This document shows, in pieces, positions 55,128-63,638 of a stretch of 64,000 nt of DNA (positions are counted from its first letter, which is position 1; each line of letters starts with the position of its first letter). The notes beneath the pieces were generated by a model. That model saw nothing but the letters and a program-made list of their open reading frames with translations. It ran no database searches and was not told the DNA's origin. The translations under genes and the position numbers were made by a program. The DNA comes from an uncultured Prevotellaceae bacterium (GTDB lineage Bacteria; Bacteroidota; Bacteroidia; Bacteroidales; Bacteroidaceae), in contig CACYPF010000002.1 of the NCBI GenBank assembly GCA_902776195.1, positions 109,586 through 173,585 on the forward strand. The letters are read 5' to 3'.

Positions 55128-56579
55128 TCAGTGGCGTATTGGCTCCCGCTTGAGATAGTCGTAGAGCGTGAGCAGGCGCAGATGGAAATAGCTGTTCCAG
55201 AAATTCTGCAATGCCGTGACCTGATTGATTCGTGCCGTCTGCCAGTACTGCTGTGCCAGCGACAGGTCGTTGACGTTTGCCTGTCCTCGGATGAAACGTT
55301 GCAGCATGGCGGTATAGGCATCCTCTGCTGTCCGCAGCGCGTGGTGGGCATCATCGACCATAGACTGGCGCTGGTTAACCTCTGCCACGGTCTGTGTGAC
55401 ATCCAACTCAGTGTCACGTTGTTGTTCCTCGCGCTGGCGGGATGCTGTCTCAGCCTTGCTCTGTGCCGCGAGCCAGGCATTACGTTTCTTGCCGTGGTCG
55501 CTGATGGGCACGGTGAGACTTACCAGCACCTGGTTCTGCACCAGTGGCTTGCGCCAGGCATGGTCGAAGCGGTCTGCCACCTGGTTGAGTCCTATCGATG
55601 CGTCGATGCTGGCATTGAGTCCCTTCTTGCGCTTCAACTGTTCGGCATCGCGCCGGGCTTCCAGCTCCTTGAGTTGCATGGACAGATAGTTGGGATTATT
55701 GTGTGAGGCATGGTCAATGGCATCGCTGGCAGCCACATTCAGGCGGGGCAATACGGTGGGTATGACCAGCTGCAGACGAGTGTGCTCGTCCATTCCCAGC
55801 CATACGGCAAGACTCCTGACTGCCTGTTGATGGCTCAGCTGGGCGCTCTTCAGGGCGGTGGCGGCGAGTGAGCGTTGCAGCGTCAGGATGTCAAGTTCGG
55901 CTTTCGAGATGGACGCTATGCGGAAGCGTCGGTTGCCGATGGCGAGGATAGTGTCACACGACTGCATCTGTTCCTGAGCCATCTTCAGTTGTTCCTGCGT
56001 CACAGCCAAGAGGAAGAACCGCTTGACTGCCTCGGCAGCAGCCTGTTCCACTGAATAGTTCATCTGTTGTTGGGCAACCGTGAGTCGCATAGGTTCGGTC
56101 TGACGGTCCCAGCGGTATGGATTGAATCCCAGCAGTTCCTGGCGATAGCCCACGCGGACAGGGGTGACGGCATACTGATGCTGGTTATAGTCACCGTAGT
56201 TGCCGAGGAAGGCAAGTCCTGTCGAGGCATAGAAGGAACCGCCCCATGGTTCCATCACCTGTTGTGCCTGCAGATTAGCGCTGGATAGCAGTCGCTTCTG
56301 CTGGCGATATTCATCGTTGTCGGTATCACTGATGTAGCGCTGGATCATGACTTGCTCGAATTGCAGCGGTGTGGCGCTCAGCTCCAGTTGCAGCTTGCGA
56401 CTTGCCATCCACGAAAGCCATGCATAGCGTGCCTCCTGGAAGACGCTGCGGTAGCGGTCGGCAGTGAGGCTGCTGTCGGTGGCAAGCTCGACGGTACGCT
56501 CCAGGTCGAGGCGGACGACATGCTGGGCTGCTGCAGTGATGGCGGCGCAGAACATCAGAACGGTGGCAAGGTGTCTCAT
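55128..56579 (-). CDS. TolC-family outer-membrane efflux protein
   Basis: A 483-residue protein with signal peptide (AAITAAAQ), and two long coiled-coil repeats (AVTQEQLKMAQEQMQSCDTI, LAATALKSAQLSHQQAVRSL, and KAETASRQREEQQRDTELDV), as in the trimeric TolC channels. It gives the export operon its outer-membrane exit. Overlaps the adaptor gene by four bases. Last gene of the operon. Confidence 0.9.
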   Translation of the reverse strand: MRHLATVLMFCAAITAAAQHVVRLDLERTVELATDSSLTADRYRSVFQEARYAWLSWMASRKLQLELSATPLQFEQVMIQRYISDTDNDEYRQQKRLLSSANLQAQQVMEPWGGSFYASTGLAFLGNYGDYNQHQYAVTPVRVGYRQELLGFNPYRWDRQTEPMRLTVAQQQMNYSVEQAAAEAVKRFFLLAVTQEQLKMAQEQMQSCDTILAIGNRRFRIASISKAELDILTLQRSLAATALKSAQLSHQQAVRSLAVWLGMDEHTRLQLVIPTVLPRLNVAASDAIDHASHNNPNYLSMQLKELEARRDAEQLKRKKGLNASIDASIGLNQVADRFDHAWRKPLVQNQVLVSLTVPISDHGKKRNAWLAAQSKAETASRQREEQQRDTELDVTQTVAEVNQRQSMVDDAHHALRTAEDAYTAMLQRFIRGQANVNDLSLAQQYWQTARINQVTALQNFWNSYFHLRLLTLYDYLKREPIRH

Positions 56580-57427
56580 GGCTGGGATGTTTTGGGGTTT
56601 ACTGACACGTGCATGCCATCGAAGAGGGAGCTGGGTGCAGCCACGCGGGCACGGAGCATGATGGTACCTTGCTCGTCGACCACGGGATTTACCTCTGTCA
56701 CCTTGGCATCGTAGACAGCATGCTCGTCGGCAACAGGTACCACGCTGATGGCTGTGCCTATAGGGAACCGTCCAAGGTCAGACTCCATCACCCTGAACTC
56801 CACATCCATTTGCTGCTGCGAGATGATGCGGCACACGACATCACCCGTCTGAGCCAACTGACCGGCATGGGCTGTGACATTTGCCACGATACCGTCGAAG
56901 GGTGCCGTCACGCGGGTAGTCTTCAACTCGTTGCGAGCTGCTGCCAGCTTGTTCTGGGCAATCAGCAGCCCACTCTTAACCTCGGCAATGTGACGCACAC
57001 GCTGTGGCACGCGGTCCATCTGCTCGGGATCGTATCCCTGTGAGATGATGACTTCCTGCATCTGGAGGCGTGCCTGCTCTATCTCGCGTTGATGCTGCTC
57101 TACGGCATTGGCATGCTTGTAGGCTTCCTGCTCGGCAAGGAGCTGTCCCCGGCGTACACGGTCGCCATTGCGTACCATGACGCGTACCACTGGCAGGGTA
57201 GTCTCGAACTTCACGTCGGCATAGCGTGCTGCCACCACCTTGCCCATGGTCTGGAAGGTGGATGGTTGGACCGTGCTGTCTGCCGGTCTGCCGGTAGCCG
57301 TCGTGTCGGAATCCTGGCTTGCGGCGATGACGGTAGTGTCCCTGGCTTCGGGTGAATCACCAGGCTTTCCCTGTTGCTGACAGGCTGTCAGCAGCAGCAC
57401 GGTTGATAATATCCATATCTTGTTCAT
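56576..57427 (-). CDS. Periplasmic adaptor, HlyD/RND type, lipoprotein
   Basis: A 283-residue adaptor with a lipoprotein signal (LLLTAC, near Cys16), a biotinyl-lipoyl-like domain (VVRVMVRNGDRVRRGQLLAE), a short alpha-hairpin, the returning half (VTAPFDGIVANVTAHAGQLA) and beta-domains. It bridges the inner-membrane transporter and TolC. It is the second adaptor in the operon besides the HlyD-like gene at 61769. Confidence 0.9.
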   Translation of the reverse strand: MNKIWILSTVLLLTACQQQGKPGDSPEARDTTVIAASQDSDTTATGRPADSTVQPSTFQTMGKVVAARYADVKFETTLPVVRVMVRNGDRVRRGQLLAEQEAYKHANAVEQHQREIEQARLQMQEVIISQGYDPEQMDRVPQRVRHIAEVKSGLLIAQNKLAAARNELKTTRVTAPFDGIVANVTAHAGQLAQTGDVVCRIISQQQMDVEFRVMESDLGRFPIGTAISVVPVADEHAVYDAKVTEVNPVVDEQGTIMLRARVAAPSSLFDGMHVSVNPKTSQP

Positions 57428-57455: not shown

Positions 57456-59621
57456 CTAAAGTTGTCGCAGACTCATTTCGTAGAATAAGCCTTTGCGTGC
57501 CATCAACTGCTCGAAGGTGCCCTCCTCGGCAATCTTTCCTTTGTTGAGTACGATGATGCGGTCGCAGTGACGGATGGTGCTCAGACGGTGGGCAATGACC
57601 AGGCGCGTACAATGCAGCCGGTCGAGGTTTTCGCTTACCTGCCTCTGGCTGATGTTGTCGAGCGCCGAGGTGGCTTCGTCGAAAAAGAGGATATTGGGAC
57701 GACCTATCAGGGCGCGGGCTATGAGCAGGCGCTGCTTCTGACCACCTGAGAATCCGCCGCCGCCCTCGGTGATGACGGTGTGCAGTCCCATGGGCAGGGC
57801 TTTCACCTCGTTGTACATGCACGCCAGCTGCAGTGCCTCCCAGACATCGTCCTGGGTGGACCAGGGGGCGGTGATGGTGATGTTATTTAAGATGTCGCCT
57901 GTGAAGAGACTGCCGTTCTGCAGGCATGTTCCTATCCGTTGGCGGAGCTGTTTCTTGTCTACTTTCTCCAAATCGTAGTGGTCGTAGTATATATTTCCGC
58001 GCTGGGGCTTCTCAAAACCCAGCAACAGGCGCAGCAGGGTGGACTTCCCACAGCCGGAGATGCCCACGATGCCCACGTATTCGCCAGCCTTGATGCTGAG
58101 CGAGAGGTCGTCGATGACCAGTGGCATGTCGTCCTGATAGCGGAAAGACAGATTCTTGACTTCGATGCTGCCCGACAGGGCTTTGATAGGGGTATGTGAG
58201 CCTGACACCTCTGGTACTGCCTCGGCAATTGCCATGACGCTCTCCAACTGTGGCTTTATCTTTGTCATTTCGGGAATCTGCTCCGTGAGCCCGGTGAGTG
58301 CGGCTGTCAGCATGCCAAAGGCTGTGGTGAACGCAATGAAGTCGCTGGTCTTGATGGAGGTTTGCAGCGTAAAGATATAGATGATGAGCAGTGATCCTAC
58401 GTTCATCAGCGCCAGCAGCGAGGGATACAGGCGCATGGCAAACCGTGGGTTGTAGATGATCCTGGCTGTATGGGTATACCGGTTGAGCCACTGGGTGAAG
58501 GCGCGTGTCTCTGAACCGGTGAGCTTGACCTTCTGTATACCTGCAAACAGGTTGCACTCCATACCGCTGAGGGCATCATTCTTGCCGATGTATAGCTGTT
58601 GTACATGGGTCGCCTTGCGGAAGTAGAGCACCAGTATCAGTACCTGCAGGGCAAACAGAGCCATTGCGGGTAGCAGGAGCGGTCCGCCGTAGATGCCCAC
58701 TTGGATGAAATAGACCACAGAGAGCACACCGTTCAGCAGTGCACCGACGGTCGTCTCATTGATCTGCTGGCACAGGTTACTGAGGTTGTTCAGCTTGGAG
58801 GTCAGTTCACCGCTGCTGTAAGTATGGAAGAATTTCGGAGGCAGCAGGAAGAGTCGTGCCATGACGGCGTTGTGCAGGTTCATCTCCACGATGTTCTCCA
58901 CGCGGACAATATAAAGATTGCGGATATAGGTCGTCAGCATGATGACCACTGCCGCTCCTACCAGCAGTCCGGCAATGGGAGCCAGGTCGGCGGCGATACC
59001 GGCAGGTATCACCGTTTCAAACACCATCTTGTTAGCCATAGGTACAAACATGCCCAGGAGCACTACGATCAGTGCGGCAAATCCCATGTAGAGCATACTG
59101 TTGGTGTCGGTTGACGACAATATGAAGCTGATGAGCTGGCGCTTGGTCATTCGCTGCAGGGGCAGTGCCTTGGTGAAACTGTATGCCTCTGGCTTCAGCA
59201 CGTCCTTCATCTGCTGCCGCGACACCTCCCGCAGGGTGCCGTCCTCGTCAGTGAAGCGATAGGTGCGACCAGTCCATTTGGGCAGCAGCGCTACCAGCCT
59301 GCCGTTACGTGTACGACCCAGCAGGGGTCCGGAAGCCTCTTTCCACCAACCGTCGGTGAGCCTTGTCTGGCGTGTCATAATGCCATGCGCCTGGAGGATG
59401 TTGTGTAATTGCTGCTCCAAGGACAATACATCGTCGGGCTCCAGTTCGTAGTCGACAATCTTCAACGCTTCCAGTATCTGGCGGATGGCAAGGTTGTCGG
59501 TCTGGGGGACAGTGCCGCCATAGCGTAGCCCCATACGTGCCGCACCTTCCTTGATCTCGCGCGAGAGGGTGGAGGCATCCAGCTTCCTGCGCTTTTCTAT
59601 CTGACTGGAAAATATGCTCAT
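57456..59621 (-). CDS. NHLM-type bacteriocin export ABC protein, permease/ATPase (no peptidase)
   Basis: A 721-residue ABC exporter. About 200 N-terminal residues without a peptidase core (NLAIRQILEALKIVDYELEP, a C39-like degenerate region) are followed by six transmembrane helices and an ATPase with GISGCGKST, FSGGQKQRLLIARAL and LFFDEATSALD. It pairs with the peptidase-bearing protein encoded just upstream. The frame stays open to 59783, but the ATG at 59619-59621 gives the family start; the extra part lies inside the upstream gene. Confidence 0.88.
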   Translation of the reverse strand: MSIFSSQIEKRRKLDASTLSREIKEGAARMGLRYGGTVPQTDNLAIRQILEALKIVDYELEPDDVLSLEQQLHNILQAHGIMTRQTRLTDGWWKEASGPLLGRTRNGRLVALLPKWTGRTYRFTDEDGTLREVSRQQMKDVLKPEAYSFTKALPLQRMTKRQLISFILSSTDTNSMLYMGFAALIVVLLGMFVPMANKMVFETVIPAGIAADLAPIAGLLVGAAVVIMLTTYIRNLYIVRVENIVEMNLHNAVMARLFLLPPKFFHTYSSGELTSKLNNLSNLCQQINETTVGALLNGVLSVVYFIQVGIYGGPLLLPAMALFALQVLILVLYFRKATHVQQLYIGKNDALSGMECNLFAGIQKVKLTGSETRAFTQWLNRYTHTARIIYNPRFAMRLYPSLLALMNVGSLLIIYIFTLQTSIKTSDFIAFTTAFGMLTAALTGLTEQIPEMTKIKPQLESVMAIAEAVPEVSGSHTPIKALSGSIEVKNLSFRYQDDMPLVIDDLSLSIKAGEYVGIVGISGCGKSTLLRLLLGFEKPQRGNIYYDHYDLEKVDKKQLRQRIGTCLQNGSLFTGDILNNITITAPWSTQDDVWEALQLACMYNEVKALPMGLHTVITEGGGGFSGGQKQRLLIARALIGRPNILFFDEATSALDNISQRQVSENLDRLHCTRLVIAHRLSTIRHCDRIIVLNKGKIAEEGTFEQLMARKGLFYEMSLRQL

Positions 59622-59640: not shown

Positions 59641-61764
59641 TTATCCGTTTTCCATGAGCTGTCGGTACAGACCGTCCTGTTGCATGAGCTGCTCATGGGT
59701 GCCTTGTTGGACGACGTGTCCGGCATCCATGACAATAATCTGGTCGCAGTCGCGGATGGTCGACAGGCGGTGTGCCACCACAATCTGCGTGATGCCCATC
59801 TCGCGGATGTGCTTCATCACCAGGTCCTCGGTGGTGGGGTCTAATGCCGAGGTTGCCTCGTCCATGATCAGGATCATAGGCTCGCGGGCAAGTGCCGTGG
59901 CTATCTCGAAGCGCTGGCACTGACCTCCGCTGAAGTTCTTTCCGCCCCGCACCACCTTGGTGGCAAGGCCCTTGGGACGGCTCATGATGTCGCTGTGTAC
60001 CTGTGCGTCGCTGCATGCCATGAGGATGGCGAAATCCTCGATGCTCTGGTCCCACATGCGGATATTCTGTGACAGTGTGTCGTCGAAGAGCACGATGTTC
60101 TGGTCGACGACGGCGATGGAGTTGGTCAACTCGTCGCTGGAGATGCTCTCGATGGGACGCCCGTCAAAGAGTATCTCACCGCTCCAGGGTTTGTAGAGTC
60201 CGGATATCAGTCTGGCGAGGGTCGACTTGCCACAGCCACTGCTGCCCACGAATGCTACCGACTCGCCAGCCCTGAGGTGCAGGTTGAAATGGTCGATCAG
60301 GGGAGGCATCGTCCGGTTGTAGCCGAAGGTGACGTCGCGCAGCTCCAGCTCGCCCAGCAGTTTGCCCGTCTCCGAATGCTCACCGTCGGCATGCCGGTCT
60401 TCGGGATACCTCATCACGTCGTCCACGCGCTCTATCTGGGAGCGCATCTCGAACAACTGCTGTCCTGCCTTCATGATTTTCTCCACGGGAGCCATGAAGG
60501 CGGTCATGAAGCCTTGGAATGCCATGAGCATACCGACGGAAAGGTCGCCTTGCAGGATATACCACGCTCCCACCAACAGGACCGCCATCGTCAGCAGATT
60601 CGATGTCAGCGTCGGCAGCAGACTCATCTCGCTCTGCTGGATGTGCATCTCACGCTGCTTATTGAACATTCTGCTCCACAGCCCGCTCCAGTATTGGAAG
60701 AATCCTTCCTCAGCGCCTGCTGCCTTGATACTCTCGATGTTCTCCAGACAACTGACCGTGGTGGAATAGTATTTACCCATGCTCTGCTGTGTACTCCTGA
60801 CCATGTTCAGGCGCTTGCCGGCATAGTAGTGTAAGACGGCGAGGTTGACGATAGCTGCCACGACACCAATCATCGTCAGCATGTAATTGTACGACAGCAT
60901 TAATATGAAATACAGCACTAATAGCATCACGTTGATAGCCTGTGGAGCCAGCACCTCGACGAGCGAGTGGGTGATGGTCTCATTGAGTCGCTGACGCTGC
61001 TGCAGGTCACCCACGTAACGCATGGCGAAGAAGTTCATGGGCAGTCTCAGCAGGTGACGCAGATAGTTGATGTTGCCCCGCAGTGCCAGCTGCCCGGCTA
61101 TGCGTTTGGAGTAGCGCTGCTGCCAGAGCGTCACGATGAAGTTGAAAAGTGCCAGCGCAGCCATCAGACAGAAGAATACGGTTGCCCACTGCGCATTGCG
61201 CCCGGAGAGTATCTCGTCGAAGAACACCCGGGTGAGCAGGGGCAGGGTCAGGGTGACGACTGCCAGCAAAAGGGTGAAGATAAAAGTCAGCCAGAAGGCT
61301 TCGTTGGCACCGCTCAGGTTATGCCTGATGTAGGAAAAAATGCTCGTGGGATGACCCGAGGGCTGGAAACGGCCGGTCAGTTCGAAGGTCATGGCGACAC
61401 CCGTGAAAGAGCGCCGGAACTCATCCATCGGTATCTCTACCGGTCCGATGCCGGGGTCGTTGAGGCATGCCTTGCCTTTCCGCATGCCCTTGAAGACGAC
61501 GAAATGCTCAAAGTTCCAGTGGATGATGGCGGGCTCCATGCCTGCCAGCTCTTCGGCACTCACCTTATAGGCACTGGGCTCCAGACCATATGTCTTGGCT
61601 GCCAACAGGATGTTCTTCATCGAACTGCCGTCGCGGCTCACGCTGCAGGCTTCGCGCACCTGCTCCAGGGGAAGCCACTTGCCATAGTACGCAAGAATCA
61701 TCGAGAGTGAGGCAGCGCCACACTCCACGGCTTCCATCTGCATCACCATGGGCACTTTCTTCAT
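59641..61764 (-). CDS. NHLM-type peptidase-containing ABC transporter (C39 peptidase, permease, ATPase)
   Basis: A 707-residue PCAT protein. The N-terminal C39 peptidase has Cys15 in EAVECGAASLSMIL, His87 in IHWNFEHFVVF and Asp103 in LNDPGIG, so the catalytic triad is complete. Six transmembrane helices follow, then an ATPase with GSSGCGKST, FSGGQCQRFEIATAL and LIMDEATSALD. The peptidase should cut leader peptides after a double glycine and the transporter move the core across the inner membrane. Its likely substrate is encoded at 62733-62831. The ATG is four bases after the HlyD-like gene. Confidence 0.93.
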   Translation of the reverse strand: MKKVPMVMQMEAVECGAASLSMILAYYGKWLPLEQVREACSVSRDGSSMKNILLAAKTYGLEPSAYKVSAEELAGMEPAIIHWNFEHFVVFKGMRKGKACLNDPGIGPVEIPMDEFRRSFTGVAMTFELTGRFQPSGHPTSIFSYIRHNLSGANEAFWLTFIFTLLLAVVTLTLPLLTRVFFDEILSGRNAQWATVFFCLMAALALFNFIVTLWQQRYSKRIAGQLALRGNINYLRHLLRLPMNFFAMRYVGDLQQRQRLNETITHSLVEVLAPQAINVMLLVLYFILMLSYNYMLTMIGVVAAIVNLAVLHYYAGKRLNMVRSTQQSMGKYYSTTVSCLENIESIKAAGAEEGFFQYWSGLWSRMFNKQREMHIQQSEMSLLPTLTSNLLTMAVLLVGAWYILQGDLSVGMLMAFQGFMTAFMAPVEKIMKAGQQLFEMRSQIERVDDVMRYPEDRHADGEHSETGKLLGELELRDVTFGYNRTMPPLIDHFNLHLRAGESVAFVGSSGCGKSTLARLISGLYKPWSGEILFDGRPIESISSDELTNSIAVVDQNIVLFDDTLSQNIRMWDQSIEDFAILMACSDAQVHSDIMSRPKGLATKVVRGGKNFSGGQCQRFEIATALAREPMILIMDEATSALDPTTEDLVMKHIREMGITQIVVAHRLSTIRDCDQIIVMDAGHVVQQGTHEQLMQQDGLYRQLMENG

Positions 61765-61768
61765 AAGC

Positions 61769-62605
61769 CTACTTGCCTTGCAATGTATTCAACGTGTTCT
61801 CTACTCGTCCTAACAGCACTTCCCATACGTACTTACGGTCCCAGATGATCTGCACATTGCAGGGCATGCCCGTGGTGACTGCCATGCCTTCGCTCTTCTG
61901 ACGACTCCATACCAGCCCGTCGGCATCACGGTCGAGCACGATGCGCACCTCATAGACTGGTTCTTCGGCAGGGATGATGGATGCCAGCTCCGCCAGCTTC
62001 AATCGCTGTGCCACCATCTTGCGGTTGGTGGGATATGACTCGATGCCCTTGACGGTGCCTACAGCATAGCCCCACTTCTCACGCTCCAGGTCGGCAGGTG
62101 TCAGCTGCACCTTGGCACCCAGCTTCACCTTCCTGAGTTCTTTGAATGTCACGTAGGCAAGCACCTCGCGCTCGTGGAACCTTGCCTCCTGGGGCAGTAT
62201 CCATGCCACAGGCTCGCGAGGCTCAAACTTGCTCTCTGCTGGCTTCGAGGTCAGCACCACTCCCGACTCAGGTGCCGTCAGGGTGGTGGTCGCCAACTGC
62301 GAACGGACACTGACAAGGGGAGTGCCTGCCGACACCTCCTGACCGTTGGTGGCTACCACATGGTGGACGGTCCCCCCGTACGGGACCGTAATCGCCTTTG
62401 CCTCTGCAAACGGGAATACAACGGCTTGGGCCCTGACGGTATAGTTGACCTTGCCAAACATACACCAGAAGAGTGCCACGCCGCACAGCAACAGCAGCGT
62501 GGAGAGCACCAGCCAGAGTCCGGGAGAAACCACCCGCGGCATCTCCTTGAGTTCGCTCTGGTCGTCAAGAGCCTCTAATGCTTCATCGTTAAATATCTCT
62601 GACAT
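61769..62605 (-). CDS. NHLM-type secretion protein, HlyD-like adaptor
   Basis: A 278-residue protein with a cytoplasmic start, one transmembrane segment (LWLVLSTLLLLCGVALFWCM) and a periplasmic HlyD-type domain (VPYGGTVHHVVATNGQEVSA, TLTAPESGVVLTSKP). It is the membrane-fusion partner of the two ABC proteins. It is the first large gene after the small precursor; a hairpin lies in the 127-base gap between them. Confidence 0.9.
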   Translation of the reverse strand: MSEIFNDEALEALDDQSELKEMPRVVSPGLWLVLSTLLLLCGVALFWCMFGKVNYTVRAQAVVFPFAEAKAITVPYGGTVHHVVATNGQEVSAGTPLVSVRSQLATTTLTAPESGVVLTSKPAESKFEPREPVAWILPQEARFHEREVLAYVTFKELRKVKLGAKVQLTPADLEREKWGYAVGTVKGIESYPTNRKMVAQRLKLAELASIIPAEEPVYEVRIVLDRDADGLVWSRQKSEGMAVTTGMPCNVQIIWDRKYVWEVLLGRVENTLNTLQGK

Positions 62606-62611
62606 ATTTGT

Positions 62612-62650
62612 AATTGTAAAACAGCCCGCAGCTGTTTGCCTGCGGGCTTA
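62612..62650 (-). terminator. Hairpin between precursor gene and export genes
   Basis: Stem AGCCCGCAG (62623-62631) pairs with CTGCGGGCT (62640-62648), 9 perfect G+C-rich pairs with an 8-base loop, followed on the minus strand by GTTTTAC. The T-run is short, so partial termination (attenuation) or RNA stabilisation is more likely than a full stop. Confidence 0.8.
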
Positions 62651-62732
62651 CTTTACTAAGTGTAATGCACTTTGTGAGCGGGAAGTCTCAGCGGTAGATG
62701 CTTTGCCTACATCAGTACCTCTAAACTATTAA

Positions 62733-62831
62733 TCAAGGTTCAATTCTTCTCTTACCACCACCACCACCGTTCACATTCTCCAGATCTTCATTGGACAATT
62801 TCTGCCCCTTCTTCTTCTCTTCTTCTTTCAT
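62733..62831 (-). CDS. Double-glycine leader peptide precursor (bacteriocin- or pheromone-like), 32 residues
   Basis: A 33-codon gene in the gap upstream of the export operon. It begins MKEEEKKKGQ, continues KLSNEDLENVNGG, a leader of the double-glycine class in which a conserved Leu/Glu/Leu pattern precedes GG, then GGG and ends KRRIEP. Cutting after the first GG (residues 22-23) would free GGGKRRIEP; cutting after the last GG would free KRRIEP. The start at 62829-62831 is 50 bases from a perfect promoter, and the next genes are a C39 peptidase transporter system. No Cys, Ser or Thr is in the core, so lanthipeptide or disulfide chemistry is excluded. Function could be a signal, a tiny antibacterial or a leader for something modified elsewhere; this is inference. 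Confidence 0.82.
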   Translation of the reverse strand: MKEEEKKKGQKLSNEDLENVNGGGGGKRRIEP

Positions 62832-62879
62832 TTCAGTAGAATTTAAATTGTTATTCTTAATATCAATGTATTATCGCTG

Positions 62880-62911
62880 CAAATATACTGAAAAATTTTC
62901 GAATCTCCAAA
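62880..62911 (-). promoter_or_regulatory. Promoter of the precursor/export operon
   Basis: On the minus strand TTTG (62908-62911), 20 bases, TATATTTG (62880-62887). The leader to the precursor ATG is about 45 bases. Confidence 0.85.
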
Positions 62912-63011
62912 CATATTGTTTTCTTTTTAAACAAAAACAGATGAAACGCCATTTTTGCAGGAGAATCCATAGGCTGTAGCTCATAGGGGCAGAAGAAAAT
63001 CAGCAAAAAAT

Positions 63012-63041
63012 TTGTTTTCCTCGGAATATTGTCGTATCTTT
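63012..63041 (+). promoter_or_regulatory. Promoter of the acetyltransferase remnant
   Basis: TTTG near 63011-63014, about 19 bases, TATCTTTG at 63034-63041, pointing right towards the ATG at 63130. Confidence 0.65.
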
Positions 63042-63129
63042 GCAATTGTAAACACCCGGTGGCCGCTGCCGATGCCACCAGCATCATTGCGACCAAAACA
63101 ATACTTTTCTTCATGCTTTTTTTAATAAT

Positions 63130-63638
63130 ATGTTTGACACCATAGATGCCACGGGAACAGGACGCAAGAGCGACCCTCGTATGCGCAACGTAGAGGCAGA
63201 GATGATACGTAGTCATGAACTGATTACAAGGGACTGCTGGAGGAATTGTTTCAGTGTGCATTAGACGATAGTGTCGTCGTTGTGTCACCCTTCTATTGCG
63301 ATTGCGGATGCCGGATGACCTTCGGGAAGAATGTGACCATCAACAAGGGAGCCACCATCCTCTCGCCGGGTAGGGTAGTGATAGAAGACAATGTGCTGAT
63401 AGGTCCCGAGGTGAAGATAGTCACTGTTGATCACGACCTCTACGACAGGCACGACCTGTTTCATTTCGGTCAGGTGACCATCAAGGAGAATGCGTGGATA
63501 TGCATCGGAGCCATCATCTGTCCCGGTGTCACCATAGGCCGCAATGCCGTCGTAGCCGCTGGTGCCGTAGTCACCAAGGATGTCCCCGACAACGCAGTAG
63601 TCGGTGGCAATCCCGCCAAAATCATCAAAACCCTCTGA
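63130..63638 (+). pseudogene. Sugar O-acetyltransferase (Maa/LacA-like), frameshifted
   Basis: The start MFDTIDATGTGRKSDPRMRN, EAEMIRSHELITR reads in one frame; from about 63222 the continuation LLEELFQCALDDSVVVVSPF reads in another and goes on to the stop with left-handed beta-helix repeats (GATILSPGRVVIEDNVLIGP, TIGRNAVVAAGAVVTKDVPD). The catalytic histidine region VDHDLYDRHD is intact. Compared with the family a few residues near the frameshift are also missing. A frame starting at 63246 could still give the helix part, but it lacks the first substrate-binding segment. Confidence 0.8.

Follow-up and report, generated by a model that had tools for sequence, protein, structure and literature searches.

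A 32-codon double-glycine precursor with a predicted nine-residue core beside a C39 export operon in an uncultured Prevotellaceae bacterium

An uncultured Prevotellaceae bacterium carries a gene of 32 codons that encodes a double-glycine precursor with a predicted core of nine residues, and this gene precedes an operon for a C39 peptidase transporter and its partner proteins. There is good inferential support for the export of a very short core through the neighbouring C39 system. As to its role, we lean, with somewhat less than even confidence, towards a reading in which GGGKRRIEP, a member of a fast-changing family, would be exported unmodified and act as a signalling or recognition peptide via an unlinked receptor. 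The gene lies in a stretch of 64,000 nucleotides, here called the window. An earlier note on this DNA had proposed a core of 6-9 residues as substrate of the neighbouring export operon; both the register of the leader and the cores of 5-16 residues in relatives lend inferential support to this proposal.

The precursor, its leader and the export operon

The precursor gene (62733..62831, minus strand) was recognised as an ATG frame in the sequence and with a profile of its relatives. Its translation, MKEEEKKKGQKLSNEDLENVNGGGGGKRRIEP, is predicted to split into the leader MKEEEKKKGQKLSNEDLENVNGG (62763..62831, minus strand), of which the final 27 bases are unchanged in the four relatives compared, and the core GGGKRRIEP (62736..62762, minus strand), which varies among close relatives. 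The frame reads as first noted, with 32 codons, a leader, five consecutive glycines and a C-terminal KRRIEP. A profile of 15 relatives, made by leave-one-out without the window sequence, matched this frame and no other in the window (E 1.1e-12 when scaled to the search space of a genome), and the frame is therefore beyond chance. Generic leader models remained below their cut-offs, i.e. TIGR01847 with 15.2 versus 15.7 bits, TIGR03949 (class IIb bacteriocin) with 17.5 versus 21.5 bits over the leader part only, and PF03047 (ComC/BlpC) with 12.8 versus 20.4 bits. NF033215 did not match the window precursor, and it matches one of 16 aligned members (E 0.0031).

With the first Gly-Gly as reference point, L stands at -12, S at -11, L at -7, V at -4 and G at -2 and -1, and the leader so has the GG/GA/GS-type end and the hydrophobic residues at -12, -7 and -4 of a double-glycine leader. 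PMC6363468 places the contacts between leader and LahT150 C39 domain at these positions, and L-12, S-11, L-7 and V-4 agree with them. Cleavage is predicted after the first Gly-Gly, because only there do L-12, L-7 and V-4 fall into the C39 register and because the non-glycine cores of relatives begin straight behind it. The cut site, which had been called ambiguous on account of the glycine run, is thus largely settled, and the predicted nine-residue core GGGKRRIEP is hardly ambiguous. A cut after the last Gly-Gly, with KRRIEP as core, is less likely, as it would shift L, L and V to -15, -10 and -7; the position of the relatives' cores disfavours it as well.

Upstream of the gene, 48 bases before the ATG, lies an exact match to the pattern TTTG-N20-TATATTTG (62880..62911, minus strand). 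We take TTTG-N20-TANNTTTG to be the Bacteroidota promoter consensus, and the precursor appears to have a promoter of its own, as had been suggested. Seven exact matches occur in the window against 0.11 expected, and the TANNTTTG element was also found in the aligned loci L031, L075 and L032.

Downstream and on the same minus strand follow five genes. The first encodes a HlyD-like adaptor of 278 aa (61769..62605; PF13437 3.2e-06), which matches TIGR03794 (2e-27) with 96.2 bits, below the cut-off of 156.2. The second product is a C39 peptidase ABC transporter of 707 aa (ABC1; 59641..61764; PF03412 1.3e-31), and its 874.7 bits exceed the TIGR03796 cut-off of 853.3. Next comes a second ABC protein without a C39 match (ABC2; 57456..59621), which would have 721 aa with the start site that relatives use, the homologues in L074 and L076 being of this length; it reaches 669.3 bits with TIGR03797, short of 709.4. 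An adaptor of the RND_mfp type with 283 aa (56576..57427; TIGR01730 95.9 bits, cut-off 94.9) and a TolC/OEP outer-membrane channel with 483 aa (55128..56579; PF02321 6.9e-21) complete the series. Domain matches thus identify each component that the earlier note had listed, namely the C39 transporter, the second ABC protein, two adaptors and TolC. Its term "NHLM-type" holds for ABC1, but ABC2 and HlyD fall below the curated NHLM cut-offs, and the term therefore denotes kinship rather than strict membership. The closest exporters come from metagenome-derived genomes whose titles read Prevotella, Prevotellaceae, Bacteroidales or uncultured bacterium, and some names among them presumably belong to rumen series.

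In the own genome of the window (93.55% complete, 42 contigs), ABC1 gave the only match to Peptidase_C39 (PF03412), and this domain, encoded next to the precursor, marks ABC1 as the cognate C39 transporter. The window frame is the one visible Gly-Gly precursor of this genome. TIGR01847 yielded two matches below its cut-off, the better one being the window frame and the other a frame of 486 residues, and a search run without a positive control detected no member of the long-leader Gly-Gly class (A2). The exporter and the precursor lie side by side with no visible competitor; other leader types could escape detection. We propose that the precursor is the substrate of the adjacent exporter, that the C39 domain would cut after the first Gly-Gly, as predicted from the leader register, and that GGGKRRIEP would pass, apparently unmodified, through the ABC/adaptor/TolC conduit.

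The 127 bases between precursor and HlyD (62606..62732, minus strand) are identical in L031 (127/127) and nearly so in the second copy of L035 (125/127). They contain a strong hairpin at 62616-62656 (fold z -3.2), a possible attenuator; the terminator scan found no intrinsic terminator after the precursor. An Rfam scan of 62550-63300 gave two sub-threshold matches only, an S15-Flavobacteria ribosomal leader over the 5' UTR (62829-62887, minus strand; E 0.62), which is probably due to chance, and psRNA6 (E 0.31), which we likewise took as chance. The stable hairpin before HlyD is what one might expect if the small frame were a leader or attenuator ORF that serves the exporter at the RNA or translation level, its peptide having no extracellular role. 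Yet the leader fits the C39 register residue by residue, and sister genes that have this kind of leader stand away from exporter genes in nine of ten listed loci (stretches of 1.7-5.7 kb; the tenth, L009, is beside TolC), so that we regard such a function as very improbable. Inspection of the ORF listings of these ten loci by eye revealed no common neighbour.

Variable cores at the same locus in close relatives

A search with ABC1 returned 68 loci. Six of them have an ABC1 at least 93% identical over the part present and a readable 5' region, and together with the window they make up a close set of seven. Intact precursor frames stand at the same place in five of the seven, with seven genes in total. 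Apart from GGGKRRIEP in the window, the cores are GHGRKIFEP in L031, ARKRPRKRFED in L075, KKVIV and KKKKRKIDA encoded by two precursor genes in L035, and SRLIFV and AGFLVW, again from two genes, in L082. The remaining two loci are broken, both in metagenome assemblies. L032 has a frameshifted leader plus an ABC1 without its first 51 residues, which presumably include the catalytic cysteine, and L092 has lost the precursor but kept the start of ABC1. Loss of the frame in relatives that retain the exporter, a possibility raised in the earlier note, is therefore seen in L092 and, with a damaged ABC1, as a frameshift in L032, but not in the other five close loci. Upstream of HlyD in L092, the precursor and its promoter are gone together with part of the hairpin, and different DNA that includes a new promoter-like site has taken their place. 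Two further close loci, L074 and L076, are cut inside ABC1 and have a sister precursor shortly after TolC, with the cores RGPKRKRFED (L074, from the same assembly as L082) and GDGGGRGKRKFEP (L076).

At 74-84% identity, seven loci have a readable 5' region. L033 has an intact precursor with the core NRPIIEP, L038 one with a core of 25 residues and L034 an inverted copy ending in NGR; no adjacent precursor was found in L036, L037, L039 and L078. When all loci with at least 200 bases before HlyD are considered (n=53 including the window), a Gly-Gly precursor is present within at most 1500 bases in 24, a count made after removal of an L046 match that is membrane-protein-like and not a precursor; the precursors of L047 and L071 escaped the underlying pattern. 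Near the exporter in more than half of the 53 loci, no precursor was found. The 24 loci hold 32 exporter-adjacent precursors, 25 of which have cores of up to 16 residues, and so the core is usually small where a precursor is present.

Very short cores are not confined to one leader class: upstream of HlyD in L063, L068 and L069, the five-residue cores SRRPR (as in L063 and L068) or LRGPR stand on a very different leader of 49 residues. Another short-core family, with 12-13 residues, occurs upstream of HlyD in L048, L052, L060, L066 and L071; four of these five share, with small differences, AQ.....PSW followed by C/Y/F/L and R.

The patchy presence of the gene, which is lost in L092, frameshifted in L032 and inverted with an NGR end in L034, could also mean that the exporter formerly served a longer substrate, of which the leader survives with a truncated core as a decaying remnant. 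We consider this improbable, given the open frames with differing cores in five of seven close loci, the intact promoter pattern, the general shortness of exporter-linked cores (25/32 with up to 16 residues) and a C-terminal motif that recurs on three leader types (see below).

Between the window and L031, 11 of 837 bases differ in HlyD, none of 127 in the 3' flank and none in the last 27 bases of the leader, against 6 of 27 in the core. This excess in the core is significant when compared with the two flanking stretches (p 7e-6) as well as with HlyD (p 5e-6). The core has also diverged more than HlyD in L075 (p 1e-5), L035 (p 2e-5) and L082 (p 2e-4), although the four core-versus-HlyD comparisons are not independent, as the window sequence takes part in each. 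It is important to note that variability is not limited to the core: the start of the leader differs too (6 mismatches and a 3-base gap in L031, all outside the last 27 bases), and the 3' flanks of L075 and L082, with 90.2% and 92.2% of aligned bases identical, are less conserved than HlyD (94.9%) and more conserved than the core. Within the small-core Gly-Gly family, cores would thus change fast while the end of the leader and the exporter stay largely fixed.

A family of small cores and its C-terminal motif

With profile A1 at E 0.001, precursors were detected in 33 of 399 genomes of the genus, in 2 of 399 drawn from the family and in 2 of 295 from the order, the own genome being included each time. 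The small-core Gly-Gly precursor family was thus found almost only in one genus. From the fetched loci we gathered 73 distinct precursors, with cores of 5-54 residues (median 14); 51 have 5-16 residues, one of them (L116) being cut by a contig end, and the 5'-truncated L003 precursor and the NGR-ending L034 precursor stand outside the 73. The same kind of leader with a short core, which the earlier note had suggested looking for in related genomes, is hence present in relatives with cores of 5-16 residues, some of them beside the exporter. Of the 33 precursor genomes, 21 have a C39 peptidase, and of all 399 genomes of the genus 132 do (odds ratio 4.0 with a one-sided p of 1.7e-4, relatedness ignored). 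The other 12 precursor genomes gave no C39 match; in at least one of these, G215 (the assembly of L076), a contig end lies inside the exporter.

Among the 51 short cores, 13 have a C-terminus made up of two basic residues, at most one further residue, one of F/I/Y/H/K/L, an acidic residue and a last residue. In 5000 trials with shuffled cores this motif occurred 0.22 times on average and 4 times at most, but it was defined after most sequences were known, and its count is inflated by relatedness. The test covered the 51 short cores, while the 22 of 73 with more than 16 residues were excluded. The motif is found on three leader types, which resemble MKEEEKKK, MKQNEENSQ and MVKKNEKES, respectively. 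A general conservation of the C-terminus was not found: across 72 cores, the last six residues are no more alike than the first six (0.0945 versus 0.1023), and therefore only the motif of the sub-family stands. L017 and L138 have cores of 5 and 22 residues with the same C-terminal RRWCM, as if the end alone mattered.

On mobile DNA, the precursor profile gave 7 pattern matches but 0 confirmed ones in viral contigs. No DNA match to 62500-62960 was found in the plasmid collection, where, among the best 5000 records, relatives of ABC1 are less than 60% identical.

Surroundings, partner genes and possible roles

The flanks were compared among the window, L031, L032, L035, L074, L075, L076, L082 and L092, using frames of at least 50 residues. 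No flank gene is common to three or more of these nine close loci. Four pairwise matches were noticed, i.e. an amidohydrolase (window and L082, 28% identity), a 53-residue acetyltransferase-like frame (window and L035) and an esterase-like gene that L082 and L092 both have upstream (46%), together with its antisense frame. According to Pfam, ten flank proteins of the relatives are unrelated household, carbohydrate, protease, integrase and DNA-binding proteins. In operon orientation, upstream DNA similarity to the window stops within 380 bases of HlyD, beyond the promoter of the precursor. The recurring unit in differing surroundings therefore consists of precursor and exporter.

Three features of the DNA upstream of the precursor deserve mention. 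At 62992-63054 (plus strand), facing away from the precursor, a block of 51-63 bases contains a perfect promoter pattern. Immediately after TolC in L032, L074 and L076 there is DNA that matches this block at 84-90% identity, inverted with respect to the operon; perhaps the block is the promoter of a lost sister precursor. Near the contig end, a hexapeptide O-acetyltransferase-like frame (63246-63638, plus strand) is preceded by an overlapping frame without Pfam match (63130-63264, plus strand), and 63130-63638 looks like a frameshifted or truncated remnant. An ORF6N-domain fragment (PF10543; 63689-63955, minus strand), also close to the contig end, is likely a phage or mobile-element remnant.

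No immunity, modification or regulatory gene was found in the precursor-exporter unit of the nine close loci. More specifically, neither a histidine kinase nor a response regulator is present in the operon, among five further window proteins or among the ten flank proteins (the contig ends 1.2 kb upstream), and the scan of the operon proteins showed no modification enzyme. These absences speak against a bacteriocin locus of the classical kind and against a RiPP that is modified locally; they also mean that a signal would be without a linked receptor.

NHLM-type exporters are classically tied to modified-peptide systems, as their model names indicate, and precursors of NHLM/NHLP systems (TIGR03796/03797/03794) have long Nif11 or nitrile-hydratase leaders. 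The product might accordingly be a modified natural product (RiPP) whose enzyme is encoded elsewhere in the genome. The C39-ABC protein of the window scores as a member, with ABC2 and HlyD as homologues below the cut-offs, but the precursor has 32 aa and a short ComC-like leader. Since the operon is devoid of a modification enzyme, no flank gene recurs in three or more close relatives, and Cys, Ser and Thr are lacking in the window core (Cys occurs in just 6 of the 51 short cores), a RiPP seems rather improbable to us.

A very small antibacterial peptide would be exported in the same way; its core would kill or inhibit competitors, and arms-race selection would account for the diversity. The leaders do resemble those of bacteriocins, as 16 of 16 aligned members match TIGR03949 (E up to 0.05), and 32 of the 51 short cores have a net charge of at least +2. 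On the other hand, cores of 5-9 residues are, by general knowledge, short for membrane action, the same locus also has neutral hydrophobic cores, AGFLVW for example, in the window no same-strand frame for an immunity protein exists between precursor and HlyD, and no flank gene of at least 50 residues is common to three or more of the nine close loci. Colicin V and class II microcins have a much longer product, a linked immunity gene and one ABC protein instead of two. They also use a C39-ABC protein, a membrane fusion protein and TolC to carry a Gly-Gly peptide across two membranes, a conduit that PMC10352776 describes. Bacteroidetocins are from the same order, Bacteroidales, with a Gly-Gly leader and a peptidase-containing ABC protein at their loci; PMC6671954 reports them as horizontally acquired and shown to kill. 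Their leaders of 15-16 residues precede mature peptides of 42-48 residues with at least two cysteines, and most loci include a thiol oxidoreductase (PMC6671954), in contrast to the nine-residue core without Cys and the operon proteins scanned here, among which no thiol oxidoreductase was seen. We judge an antibacterial role unlikely, and a signalling or recognition peptide is the favoured reading of these sequences.

According to the signalling reading, the short secreted peptide would be perceived by an unlinked receptor, and its C-terminal basic-hydrophobic-acidic end may be the part recognised. Classical pherotypes have a linked receptor, and the streptococcal CSP has about 17 residues. The streptococcal double-glycine peptides (CSP/ComC, BIP/BlpC, VP1, BriC and rtg) likewise combine a Gly-Gly leader, a C39 exporter and small products. 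They are, however, Gram-positive systems, with CSP and BIP encoded beside a two-component receptor, whereas the window has two adaptors and TolC and lacks the linked histidine kinase and response regulator of a ComC/BlpC pheromone locus. As stated in PMC7595303, several streptococcal Gly-Gly peptides have no adjacent receptor.

The proposed explanation draws on the promoter, the profile match, the C39 leader register and the sole visible pair of C39 exporter and precursor, on the intact frames in five of seven close loci, the core outpacing HlyD, the C39 association and the C-terminal motif, as well as on the coincidence of leader frameshift and ABC1 N-terminal loss in L032, the unshared flanks and the upstream similarity that ends beyond the precursor's promoter. 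Against it stand L092, which keeps exporter DNA without the precursor, the lack of an adjacent precursor in four of the six loci at 78-84% identity with a readable 5' region, the failure to find a receptor or regulator travelling with the unit, the variability beyond the core, the post hoc motif and the 12 of 33 precursor genomes without a C39 match.

In the titles and abstracts searched, with subscription journals thinly covered, tiny-core Gly-Gly precursors in Prevotella are not described, and no paper on NHLP with Prevotella was found. Secreted Gly-Gly peptide signalling is best known from Gram-positive bacteria. The parts are known individually; the combination of tiny cores of 5-16 residues, variable on a shared leader, as a genus-wide repertoire in a Gram-negative is one that we did not find in this literature. 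Catalogues of small proteins and antimicrobial peptides (PMC11364881, PMC10491242) may list the ORF without a name.

The present locus may thus belong to a family of tiny bacterial peptides, messengers or weapons, that has not been described before. More broadly, and only as a tentative and rather doubtful possibility, rumen Prevotella may have a genus-level set of unmodified linear peptides, mostly of 5-16 residues, with interchangeable, fast-evolving cores on a common Gly-Gly leader and a relocating C39/TolC operon as exporter, for pherotype-like signalling in a Gram-negative through receptors yet to be found. If such a large and varied set of substrates does stand behind a two-membrane exporter in this major rumen genus, peptide signalling in Bacteroidota, or ultra-small antibacterials, would become directly testable with cheap synthetic peptides, and genome mining that relies on longer cores and on enzymes in the flanks would seem liable to overlook systems of this kind.
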